A stretch of DNA of 20,046 nt, taken from positions 1-20,046 of the IMG/VR virus record IMGVR_UViG_3300036830_000113. The stretch is one strand, 5' to 3'. The notes under the pieces are model-generated. The model was not told the origin of the DNA and did no database searches. It saw only the letters and a list, made by a program, of their open reading frames with translations. Numbering within the stretch: the first letter of the stretch is position 1; each line of letters starts with the position of its first letter. Source of the stretch: a virus. Positions 1 to 3,470 of the stretch are shown here, in pieces. The position numbers and the translations under genes are program-made.

Positions 1-603
1 AGCCCGCGATTGGTATTCACTTATGCCGACACTCCTGATGACGTTGAGCGCTTAGAGCGTGGCCCTGAATTTTTCTTTATGGGGATCGACCAAGGGGAGC
101 AATTAAGTGAACGAGACCTGCAACGCCTGAATTCTCCGAATCGCTGGCCGGATACTCTTCCGAATGCCGCGAAAACCGGGTACTTCTACAACCCCGGCGG
201 CCCAGGTACGCCGTACCTGAAGCGGGTTTTCTACGACCGAAAGTTTCACGATAATGAACGCCCTGGCGACTTTGCCTTTATCCAAGCGTACGGGTGGGAT
301 AACGCGAGTTGGTTTCTGAATCAAGGAATAGAAATCAACGGCGAGGCGCTCACGTGGGAGACTTTTTACGATCTCCCAGGGGATATCGAAGTCCCCGGCG
401 ATGGAAAATACAATCAGGCGTGGCTCCGATCACTTCCGAAGTTTCACCGCTTCAGAATGTTTGTCGAACAGACTTCCGAGGGTCGCAAGCATTGGGCGAA
501 ACCGGAAGCTATCCGCATGGGTGATCTGTTTGGGCGTTTTGACCAGTTCAGCGGGCAGGCCTTTGCTGGATCGTGGGACGAGAGAAAGATGGTTTTGAGA
601 TGA
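1..603 (+). CDS. terL: Terminase large subunit, ATPase-domain ORF (5' partial)
   Basis: The reading frame is open from the first base, so the N-terminus with the Walker A motif lies outside the window. The visible part resembles the second half of a phage packaging ATPase. A Walker-B-like strand ends in Asp-Gln (88-93) where many terminases have Asp-Glu. It is followed by a leucine-rich helix, an NPGG segment at 190-201 typical of the coupling region, and 'AFIQAYGWDN'. The ORF then ends in the 'GxFDQFSGQAF..WDE' stretch that normally leads into the nuclease domain. Here it stops at 603, and the stop overlaps the next start (ATGA, 600-603). The nuclease half reappears at 1323. The Gln for Glu change could be a subfamily trait. 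The terminase assignment is firm; whether this half is active alone is unknown. Confidence 0.85.
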   Translation, partial: SPRLVFTYADTPDDVERLERGPEFFFMGIDQGEQLSERDLQRLNSPNRWPDTLPNAAKTGYFYNPGGPGTPYLKRVFYDRKFHDNERPGDFAFIQAYGWDNASWFLNQGIEINGEALTWETFYDLPGDIEVPGDGKYNQAWLRSLPKFHRFRMFVEQTSEGRKHWAKPEAIRMGDLFGRFDQFSGQAFAGSWDERKMVLR

Positions 604-1326
604 GCGAAGTAACCGAGATTAGCTGGAGCGATAGCACTTTTAACCCTTGGGCCGGATGCACAAAAGTCTCCCCGGCCTGCGACAACTGCTATGCCGAAAA
701 AGACACGGCGTTTCACAAGTACGTCGTTTGGGGTAAAGACGCGCCTCGGCGCCGGACCTCAGTTGGATACTGGAATCAACTGGAGAAGTGGAATCGCACC
801 GCCGCGATGGAGCCGCGCAACCGCCGCGTGTTCATCGGCTCGTGGTGCGACATCATGGAAACCACGATTGGAAGCGTGCTCGCACCTCGACAAACTCCTG
901 TTGACGAAGCGCCCACAGAACTACCGTAAATATCTTCCGCCGGAATGGATAGCGCGGCCGCTCCAATCGGTTTGGGGTATGACGACCGTCGAGAGTCCGG
1001 AATACAACTGGCGCATCGACGCGCTACGAGACACGCCGTTCGCCGTACGTGGATTGAGCATGGAGCCGCTACTGGCCGCCCCGAAGAACCTTGACCTTCG
1101 CGGTATCGATTGGGTTATCGTCGGTGGCGAAAGTCAGCACGGCGCAAGGCCGATGCAGATTGAGTGGGCTCGTGAAATTCGCGACATCTGCATCGCTTGT
1201 AATATTCCCTTTCACTTTAAGCAATGGGGTGAGTACAACTCCGAACTCATCAAGATCGGCAAGAAGAAAACAGGCTCCGAGCTTGACGGGCGCGAGTGGA
1301 AAGAATTCCCTCGGACCGCCGCGTGA
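600..1326 (+). pseudogene. DUF5131 / phage Gp37-Gp68 family gene, frameshifted
   Basis: The family carries a radical-SAM-like three-cysteine signature and has no established function. The ORF from ATG 600 begins with the family hallmark 'TFNPWAGCTKVSPACDNCYAE' split as TFNPWAGC and CDNCYAE, then reads RRVFIGSWCDIMET. It leaves the family pattern at about 860-885 and stops at 929. The rest of the family is in the next frame: HLDKLLLTKRPQNY, LSMEPLL, DWVIVGGES, ARPM, and a FHFKQWGE ending, stopping at 1326. About 20 residues usually found between the two blocks are missing, so a deletion that shifted the frame is likelier than a single-base error. It overlaps the terminase ATPase ORF by ATGA upstream and the terminase nuclease ORF by GTGA downstream. 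It could be a pseudogene or two expressed fragments. Confidence 0.82.
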
Positions 1327-2123
1327 GCCCCGCTCTCTCGGAATACGAATTTGAGCGGCTCGCAAAATACTGGTGGACGTGCTGGATCGGTTTGAGTTGG
1401 GGATTCCGCCGCAACGCCGTCTGTTACTGGGCCTGCACCGGAAGAATCTCACCGCAGGAAGCATGGGAAGTTCTCGGGATCAATCACGAGTTCCCGCTTG
1501 ATGTGGTGATCTTCTACCGGGAACTCATCACGACGTTGACCCCCGAAGCGGAACTGGCGCAAATGATCGTGGACGCAACCCCCATCCCGGAGCGCGCGAA
1601 CATCCGCAGGCTCTATGCCGGCCGCAACGTATTCGACCGCGAAGAAGAGACAAAGCGAACCGTGGCGGATCTGCTGAACCCGGTTTTCGTCGCCGGGAAA
1701 CTTCCACGTTTGAAACTCTCCGACGACGGCCCCGCCAGTCGCGTTCCAGGCTTCCGTATGGTCGCCGCAAGCTCCCGGCGAACAATCACCATGCGGAGCG
1801 ACGACCCGCCGCCAGAGAAGAGTGATACCCCGCTTCTGTTCATCTCGAAAGATTGCCCGGAGTTGATATCCACGATCCCCTCTTTGATTTCGACGGACCC
1901 GAAGAACCCGGAAGATGTTAACCGCGTCGGAACGGTCCAGGACGAAATCTGGCAGGCATGCATGAACACTTTCACGCAATACCCTTCGGCCATCAAAGCG
2001 GAGCCGTTGAAGATCCGCCGCCAACGCGCCATTGACGCCGCCGATTCTCCCATTCACAAGCGATTAAAGATGATTGAATTTGACTTCAAAAACAAGCAGT
2101 TACGGCGAACTAAGCGCATCTGA
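1323..2123 (+). CDS. Terminase large subunit, detached nuclease-domain ORF
   Basis: This 266-residue ORF matches the C-terminal RNase H-like nuclease half of a large terminase. It has a tryptophan-rich opening (YWWTCWIG), 'WGF..NAVCYW', 'VVIFYREL', a central helical region, 'PLLFISKDCPELISTIP', and a closing 'NPEDVNRVGTVQDEI'. GTG 1323 is chosen because it overlaps the preceding stop as GTGA and starts where the linker to the ATPase half would lie. Two expected metal-binding acids are replaced. The usual 'DWG' reads SWG (Ser codon 1395-1397), and the second acid of the closing D-x3-D pattern is Gln (1953-1955). The nuclease is probably weak or dead unless other residues compensate. The homology call is strong; the residue comparison is from memory of the family, without an alignment. 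Confidence 0.78.
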   Translation: MSPALSEYEFERLAKYWWTCWIGLSWGFRRNAVCYWACTGRISPQEAWEVLGINHEFPLDVVIFYRELITTLTPEAELAQMIVDATPIPERANIRRLYAGRNVFDREEETKRTVADLLNPVFVAGKLPRLKLSDDGPASRVPGFRMVAASSRRTITMRSDDPPPEKSDTPLLFISKDCPELISTIPSLISTDPKNPEDVNRVGTVQDEIWQACMNTFTQYPSAIKAEPLKIRRQRAIDAADSPIHKRLKMIEFDFKNKQLRRTKRI

Positions 2124-2181: not shown

Positions 2182-2409
2182 GTGCAAACGGAATCGGCAC
2201 TTTCTGAGGCCGAAATAATCCACCTTTGGCTCCGTCGTAATCGTGGCGTTTGCGCCACAATTGCACGGGATAATAAAGTCTCCCGTGAATTCGTTCGGAA
2301 AATCCTCTACGGTCTTCGGGGCGTAAAATCTCTTGATTGTCGTATTGAACGGGCACTGGCCGACGCGGGCGCTCCCTGTATGTCGGAACGGATGGCGGTG
2401 TCGGTATGA
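2182..2409 (+). CDS. Small helix-turn-helix DNA-binding protein
   Basis: This is a 75-residue protein whose centre (about residues 8-60) reads as a helix-turn-helix: 'AEIIHLWLRR', then 'VCATIARDNKVSREFVRKILYG', then a basic turn and a final 'IERALADAG' helix. The pattern resembles small phage regulators. GTG 2182 is the only start that keeps the full domain. No Shine-Dalgarno precedes it and the predicted transcription start coincides with it, so the mRNA is probably leaderless. Its stop overlaps the replication-initiator start as ATGA. It sits directly behind a palindromic operator, which suggests autoregulation of the replication operon. It could instead act as an accessory initiator. Confidence 0.72.
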   Translation: MQTESALSEAEIIHLWLRRNRGVCATIARDNKVSREFVRKILYGLRGVKSLDCRIERALADAGAPCMSERMAVSV

Positions 2410-3470
2410 AACGAGGTGCCCCAGACCACTGGAAGATGGTGGACCTAGCGAAGCGCCTCCACGTGCCAGACCGTTATGCAATTGCATGGGCAAACGGGGT
2501 ACTTGAAAGGCTTTGGCATTTTACGGCCAACTATGCTCCTCGCGGCGATATAGGAAGAATCCCGGATGAAGCTATCGCCCGCGCATGTTCGTGGCCAGAA
2601 GAAGAATCCTCTGTCCTCATAAAAGCTTTCATTGACGCGCGGTGGGCAGATCCATCCGATGACTACCGAGTAGTAATCCACGACTGGTCCGACCACTGCG
2701 ACGATTCAGTCCACTCCAAGGTAGCCCGACTGAAGCAATGGTTTACCGACGGCAAATCGCCCAAACTGACAGGCCTGCGGAAATACGAAAAAGAGGAACT
2801 GGAGAGGTTTTATTTGGCGGCAACCCCGGTGCAACCCGTTGCAACCCCGGTGCAACCCGTTGCAACCCCGGTGCAACCCGTTGCAACCCCGGTGCAACCC
2901 GTTGCAAATTCGCAAGTTGTTGAAAATAAACAAAGTGACATGCAACCCCAGTGCAACCCCGTTGCAACCCCAGTGCAACCCCAGTGCAACCCATTAGCCA
3001 TAGCCTTTGCCTCTGCCTTAGCCACTGCCACTACCAAACCAAATACACAACACACACGAGCAGAGGAAAGTACAGGTATTGTGGCGAACGGGAACGGAAA
3101 TCCTCCTGTGTGTATTCGGTGGCCGTACTTGGCCGACCCGGACTTTTCACCGTTCGTCGTGGCGGCTCTCGAATACTGGCCGGATTTGATCGAGGAGGAT
3201 TTGCAGAACTCGTGGCACTTCACGTGGAAGAAACTGGACTTCGAGCAACGGGTCGATGTGGTCAAACGGCTACGTGTTCGTATCGAGGCCGGAGAGCCAG
3301 CCCATTTTGTTAAAAGGCCGCCAAAGTATTTGGAGAACGGCGACTGGAAGAGGCCGCCGCGGAAGGCGGTAAATGGCAACGGAAACGGAAATGGCAGAGC
3401 ACTTCCGGATGGCCCGACGAAATCCACGTACCAGCCACTGCCGATTTATAGACCAGGGGAGGACTCATGA
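2406..3470 (+). CDS. Phage replication initiator-like protein with internal iteron array
   Basis: This 354-residue protein has the architecture of phage replisome organisers. The N-terminal part (about 1-110) is globular and winged-helix-like. A low-complexity linker follows with repeated 'ATPVQPV' and a second Gln/Cys/Asn/Pro-rich stretch. Next is a C-terminal globular part (about 235-310, 'PDFSPFVVAALEYWPDLIEEDLQNSWHFTW' in pieces) and a basic Asn/Gly-rich tail. The DNA encoding the linker is an ordered repeat array. Its stop overlaps the DnaB-type helicase start (ATGA), the usual initiator-then-helicase order. The start ATG overlaps the HTH stop. By analogy with lambda O it would bind the repeats and load the helicase. 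No family was recognised with certainty, so the role rests on context and architecture. Confidence 0.65.
   Translation: MKRGAPDHWKMVDLAKRLHVPDRYAIAWANGVLERLWHFTANYAPRGDIGRIPDEAIARACSWPEEESSVLIKAFIDARWADPSDDYRVVIHDWSDHCDDSVHSKVARLKQWFTDGKSPKLTGLRKYEKEELERFYLAATPVQPVATPVQPVATPVQPVATPVQPVANSQVVENKQSDMQPQCNPVATPVQPQCNPLAIAFASALATATTKPNTQHTRAEESTGIVANGNGNPPVCIRWPYLADPDFSPFVVAALEYWPDLIEEDLQNSWHFTWKKLDFEQRVDVVKRLRVRIEAGEPAHFVKRPPKYLENGDWKRPPRKAVNGNGNGNGRALPDGPTKSTYQPLPIYRPGEDS
2820..2992 (+). repeat. Iteron-like tandem array, candidate replication origin
   Basis: Four identical 21-bp units run from 2820 to 2903, each made of two near-copies: GCAACCCCGGT (11) and GCAACCCGTT (10). An AT-rich 38-base gap follows (2904-2941, including TTGTTGAAAATAAACAAAG). 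A second block of 11-bp copies runs from 2942 to 2992 (GCAACCCCAGT or GCAACCCCGTT, the last one partial). The 10/11-base period is about one helical turn. Position inside an initiator gene, beside an AT-rich segment and upstream of a helicase gene, matches the lambda O/ori layout. It also encodes a Pro/Gln linker, so a purely protein-level repeat is possible. Confidence 0.6.

Follow-up and report, generated by a model that had tools for sequence, protein, structure and literature searches.

The large terminase (TerL) at the left end of this viral contig most plausibly lost its DNA-cutting activity first and was then divided by a DUF5131 cargo gene; today it is probably defective or non-cutting, a reading to which we assign a probability of about 0.55. 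The window, by which we mean the whole 20,046-base stretch analysed, is identical to its record, and its left end lies inside the ATPase gene, with the Walker A motif and the terminase N-terminus upstream of base 1 and off the contig. The locus encodes the terminase large subunit of a tailed phage, and among the relatives of this phage are prophage-like sequences in Acidobacteriota genomes.

A large terminase gene divided at its domain joint

The locus comprises the following features, all on the + strand.

1..603, +: TerL ATPase domain, C-terminal ~200 aa (tblastn to TerL relatives)
598..1334, +: inserted segment with no terminase homology and with ATGA/GTGA overlaps at its bounds (alignment to unsplit TerL; Rfam)
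600..929, +: N-terminal part of DUF5131, CX6CX2C motif kept (Pfam E 2.6e-16; 66% identity to the DUF5131 homologue L044)
857..863, +: deletion point, where the frame changes from 3 to 1 (net loss of 38 bases against L044)
862..1326, +: C-terminal part of DUF5131, out of frame with the N-terminal part (Pfam E 5.5e-46; 69% identity to L044)
1323..2123, +: TerL nuclease domain (RNase H-like) in an ORF of its own with a GTG start, 266 aa, predicted fold complete (tblastn; AlphaFold; Foldseek; VIA-align)
1395..1397, +: first catalytic Asp replaced by Ser (AGT); D in 83/83 relatives with a residue there
1626..1628, +: second catalytic Asp replaced by Asn (AAC); relatives have D in 67/82, E in 7 and another residue in 8
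1953..1967, +: third catalytic motif, with D to Q (1953), R to M (1962) and Y to N (1965)

Single-sequence searches of viral_contigs, genome_contigs, phages and plasmids returned no close relatives, and neither ORF 1-603 nor ORF 1323-2123 on its own matched Pfam, PHROGs or NCBIfam. The first relatives recovered were three distant gut-phage terminases. Relatives were gathered with hand-written DNA patterns for two ATPase motifs and then with a profile, yielding ~120 TerL loci (84 distinct) that include three prokaryote contigs (Bryobacterales, Granulicella mallensis and a Patescibacteria bin). The full-length TerL in the collection hit PHROG terminase families 979 and 2. By tblastn, the identity of the window to these TerL relatives is about 33-49% in the ATPase domain and about 20-37% in the nuclease domain. 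The nearest rows are L124 for the ATPase half and L203 for the nuclease half; a mosaic origin of the two halves is unsupported (AU p 0.06 and 0.24).

The sequence-only reading had proposed that a DUF5131 gene splits TerL at the joint between ATPase and nuclease with no obvious loss of terminase sequence, and the ORF coordinates, the Pfam match and alignments to unsplit terminases bear this out. In those alignments, which the same reading had called for, each ORF maps to one half of the same TerL. Residues 109-279 and 285-536 of the unsplit L125 protein correspond to window positions 7-597 and 1353-2120, and residues 124-315 and 321-566 of unsplit L124 to 7-597 and 1353-2099. The foreign DNA between the terminase halves is 720-755 bases long and only ~5 terminase residues are unaccounted for, with no domain lost. 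The ATPase ORF ends in a TGA stop one codon past the homologous boundary. In every relative tested the two domains are adjacent, with ATPase and nuclease matches spaced by -2 to 58 nt; in the window they are found not in one chain but in two ORFs, 720 bases apart. The predicted ATGA and GTGA junctions are present, at 600-603 and 1323-1326. No second TerL copy was found within the 20,046-base window. The sequence TGAGC, which occurs at 601 and 1324, was considered as a target-site duplication and rejected: it is a common 5-mer that the window contains 30 times, below the expected number, and across the repeat the two flanks do not share a frame.

The ATPase half carries the Walker B sequence GIDQGEQ and the coupling motif YNPGG, both of which align with the motifs of the clade, and it retains 32 of the 36 near-invariant ATPase columns. 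The Walker B of the window (85-102) and its relatives, DQAEQ, differs from the DEATQ of L003 and L004. The usual position of the catalytic Glu is occupied by Gln in 72 of the 84 distinct TerL, with a Glu two residues further on, and because this Gln is so prevalent we rejected the reading of it as the mark of a dead ATPase.

Downstream of the split TerL lie replication genes (Rep-like, DnaB, exonuclease, helicase and a weak RusA-like match), whereas in the relatives a portal-like gene comes after TerL; it is missing here. The replication genes seen in this incomplete genome are DnaB-type and unlike those of phi29. Tandem GCAACCCCGGTGCAACCCGTT-type repeats at window 2820-2995, within the Rep-like ORF (2406-3470), encode VQPVATP repeats.

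A nuclease domain without its catalytic acids

All three metal-binding acids of the nuclease site are missing, with Ser, Asn and Gln in place of three Asp residues. Because the second catalytic position shows some variation among clade members, weight is placed on the first and third. Among relatives with a residue at the positions concerned, the third motif has D in 78/78, R in 73/77 and Y in 72/77. Seven of the 19 nuclease columns conserved at 95% are lost in the window, and five of these seven lie in or beside the catalytic motifs. The sequence-only reading had also raised the possibility of a split terminase working as two subunits; for a terminase of the ordinary kind this is unlikely, since the nuclease half lacks all three acids.

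The fold tells a different story from the active site. An AlphaFold model of the nuclease half reached a pLDDT of 90.6, a value that indicates compatibility with the fold rather than proof of folding, because the model was built on an alignment of relatives. Its best structural matches are the TerL nucleases of D6E, P22, SPP1, Sf6, G20c and HK97 (Z 16 to 12), with Z 16.1 and an rmsd of 2.7 over 164 residues for D6E and Z 15.1 for P22. The predicted model thus has the C-terminal RNase H-like nuclease fold of TerL.

The rate of divergence was compared between the two halves. The ratio of nuclease to ATPase distance is 1.51 for the window against a median of 1.83 in the relatives, and the window end branches under a mixture model, 1.99 for nuclease and 1.05 for ATPase, give a similar ratio. 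The length of both end branches means that the whole protein is divergent; the nuclease half is not running faster. As counted from the genetic code, the changes at the five active-site codons need at least 7 base substitutions, and no stop or frameshift interrupts the 266 codons of the ORF. Neutral drift long enough for that many changes would almost surely have left stops or indels; with neutral divergence set at 0.05, the frame would stay open with a probability of ~0.005 (assuming 0.1 indel per substitution). Given the intact fold and a divergence no faster than that of the ATPase half, simple neutral decay does not explain the loss of the acids. On these sequence comparisons, the nuclease half appears to be CATALYTICALLY dead, not decayed. 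Decay had been put forward earlier as the other possible outcome of the split, and this idea holds for the frameshifted DUF5131 gene and fits badly for the nuclease half, whose fold and rate look constrained.

The DUF5131 insert and the broken translational chain

The middle gene belongs to DUF5131 (PF07505), with matches of 60.3 and 157.5 bits against a cut-off of 28.9. This identification, together with the absence of Rfam matches, supports the earlier suggestion that the intruder is unlike the introns, inteins or HNH genes known from terminase genes. No intron was detected by Rfam at E<=1 in 500-1500, and there were no Rfam matches across the 20 kb contig. An intein was likewise rejected, given the stops at 601-603 and 1324-1326, the lack of an intein domain and the presence of DUF5131 only.

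The middle gene is not the single open frame it had been taken for: 600-929 is read in frame 3 and the rest in frame 1. Between ATGGA and CCACG there are 40 bases in L044 and two in the window. The net 38-bp deletion near 860 shifts the frame, and the gene is therefore a pseudogene. The deletion aside, DUF5131 shows good conservation, which makes the lesion look recent. Translation initiated at 600 would terminate at 927-929, short of the GTG at 1323, and no Shine-Dalgarno-like sequence precedes that GTG. Coupled stop-start translation of the three ORFs from a single mRNA, as proposed, therefore fails for the sequence as given.

The same arrangement was sought in related contigs and is absent: DUF5131 was found neither in any of the relative loci nor in 24 whole related records, each of which carries a single TerL. 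In annotated phages DUF5131 stands free as an accessory gene in the neighbourhood of recT and other early genes. The insert belongs to the same family as the DUF5131 / Gp37_Gp68 genes of Gordonia, Mycobacterium and other phages (PADLOC candidates PDC-M41B and PDC-M30B); these are free-standing, whereas the window copy lies inside a terminase gene and is frameshifted. The homologue L044 has a predicted TIM-barrel-like fold with weak structural matches, the best being lysine 2,3-aminomutase (E 0.005). A radical-SAM-family match, itself weak and far below the cut-off, would agree with this fold and is suggestive only. In L044 (5361-5948) and L045 (5349-5904), an HNH-type ORF overlaps the DUF5131 3' end and is followed by a ~31-codon copy of the DUF5131 tail, which looks like the insertion of an HNH gene near the 3' end.

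Proposed origin of the split locus and its significance

Three steps may account for the present locus. Nuclease catalysis would have been lost while the fold stayed under selection, a loss of cutting in a protein that was still useful, as has been proposed for phi29 gp16. A DUF5131 cargo gene of the phage early-operon kind would then have entered the domain linker, producing three head-to-tail ORFs. Finally, a partial deletion of DUF5131 would have cut the stop-start chain feeding ribosomes to the nuclease ORF. We infer this order, from loss of catalysis through DUF5131 entry to DUF5131 breakage. As it stands, the locus can most likely supply no more than a piece of a motor that does not cut, and the phage (or provirus) is probably either defective or dependent on another nuclease. 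Several observations sit less comfortably with this explanation. The ATPase and nuclease frames are open and constrained, as those of a fully dead locus need not be, and the ATG/TGA and GTG/TGA overlaps resemble a tidy operon more than a random break. Moreover, the deletion in DUF5131 may have arisen recently or represent a minority variant, and the locus is known from one contig with the rest of the genome missing.

Those same open frames also speak for a working motor made of two chains, in which the ATPase and a pseudonuclease reassemble as separate polypeptides, with DUF5131 as an expendable passenger and the pseudonuclease perhaps serving for DNA or portal contact, by analogy with the vestigial nuclease domain of phi29 gp16. 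We rank this alternative next and hold it only tentatively. The retention of nearly all near-invariant ATPase columns speaks for it, as do the intact nuclease fold, the unraised rate and the clustering of losses on the active site. There is also a precedent, in that the C-terminal domain of phi29 gp16, although only the vestige of a nuclease, has kept its ability to bind DNA (PMC7672431). Another two-ORF TerL, described below, is conserved in two related lineages. However, the DUF5131 frameshift removes the translational coupling to a nuclease ORF that has no Shine-Dalgarno-like site, the 20 kb hold no sign of a terminal protein or pRNA beside the DnaB-type replication genes, and the split has been seen only once. 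The fuller proposal, that a tailed phage with DnaB-type replication packages its DNA by a two-chain, non-cutting terminase of ATPase and structural or DNA-binding pseudonuclease, with cutting handed over or needless and DUF5131 in the joint, is in our estimate unlikely.

The nuclease half of the window, like the corresponding domain of gp16, is an RNase H-like terminase domain without catalytic residues, a trait of phi29-like packaging ATPases. The gp16 protein, though, is one chain serving a unit-length terminal-protein genome, whereas the window domain is a separate ORF beside DnaB-type replication genes and, unlike gp16, is still recognisable by sequence as a TerL nuclease. As for a phi29-like pRNA, no Rfam match was obtained in the 20 kb of this incomplete genome. 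The DQAEQ-clade TerL (relatives in PHROG 979 and PHROG 2, from viral contigs, Bryobacterales and Granulicella) share the domain order and RNase H fold of the window, with identities reaching about 51% in the ATPase and about 34-37% in the nuclease; they are single ORFs that keep the catalytic acids, whereas the window TerL is split and has lost them.

An assembly chimera or contig error, in which DUF5131 DNA was artificially joined into an intact terminase, is improbable. The single record, the lack of close relatives in viral_contigs and the contig start inside TerL would all suit such an error, but it would have to spare all but ~5 terminase residues and create start/stop overlaps on both sides. 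The nuclease half is also abnormal in itself, having lost its catalytic acids, and third-position G+C is similar in DUF5131 and nuclease (~0.7).

Ordinary decay of a defective prophage, with all parts drifting neutrally after the insertion, we consider distinctly improbable. It would accommodate the broken DUF5131, the lost catalytic residues, a gene order unlike that of the relatives and the existence of a related contig, L181, whose TerL is broken by a transposase-like insertion. Yet the nuclease ORF remains open along its whole length, at odds with the low chance calculated above, is not accelerated relative to the ATPase and has lost conserved residues that cluster on the active site. Finally, a spliced group I/II intron or intein carrying DUF5131 as a passenger, so that whole TerL is made, is barely credible here: TerL genes are often so interrupted, but no Rfam match or intein domain was detected, stop codons stand at both joints and the DUF5131 ORF fills the insert almost completely.

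Interruptions of other kinds are found in both published and related terminases. Jug phages carry group I introns in terL, with splicing seen in RNA (PMC12363816), and terL of Campylobacter phage IBB_35 has an intein plus an intron (PMC3322345). The window TerL is likewise interrupted, by a plain ORF with stops at both joints and no splicing element detected. Among the relatives, intein-like in-frame inserts lie at the P-loop in L024 and L026 and directly ahead of the LRYG motif in L038. In L181 (897-2900) the TerL nuclease domain is interrupted by an IS1595/ISXO2-type transposase-like ORF, identified by eye. A further split, with the ORF stop within the nuclease domain, is seen in L194 (1910-3394), L195, L010 and L032 and also in L200 (5842-7285) and L030. 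In the L194/L200-type split the second ORF begins from an ATG at or just after the stop (MWLIA..CHELLDA..) and carries the third catalytic motif. Identity between the two lineages is 65% in the first ORF and 72% in the second, and this split is therefore conserved.

In the literature covered, which is incomplete, we found no paper describing a splicing-free cargo gene at the TerL domain joint together with a pseudonuclease. Interrupted terL genes are already known; this combination is new. Outside phi29-like phages, nuclease activity is regarded as a universal property of TerL (PMC7672431). If the two-chain reading were true, a classical TerL with its fold and constraint preserved, without catalytic acids and with its nuclease half in a separate ORF, would mean that cutting and pumping are separable, and the locus would offer a natural split point for rebuilding the motor as two chains. 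Even a merely defective locus would indicate that the domain joint of terminase genes is open to plain cargo genes and not to introns and inteins alone.
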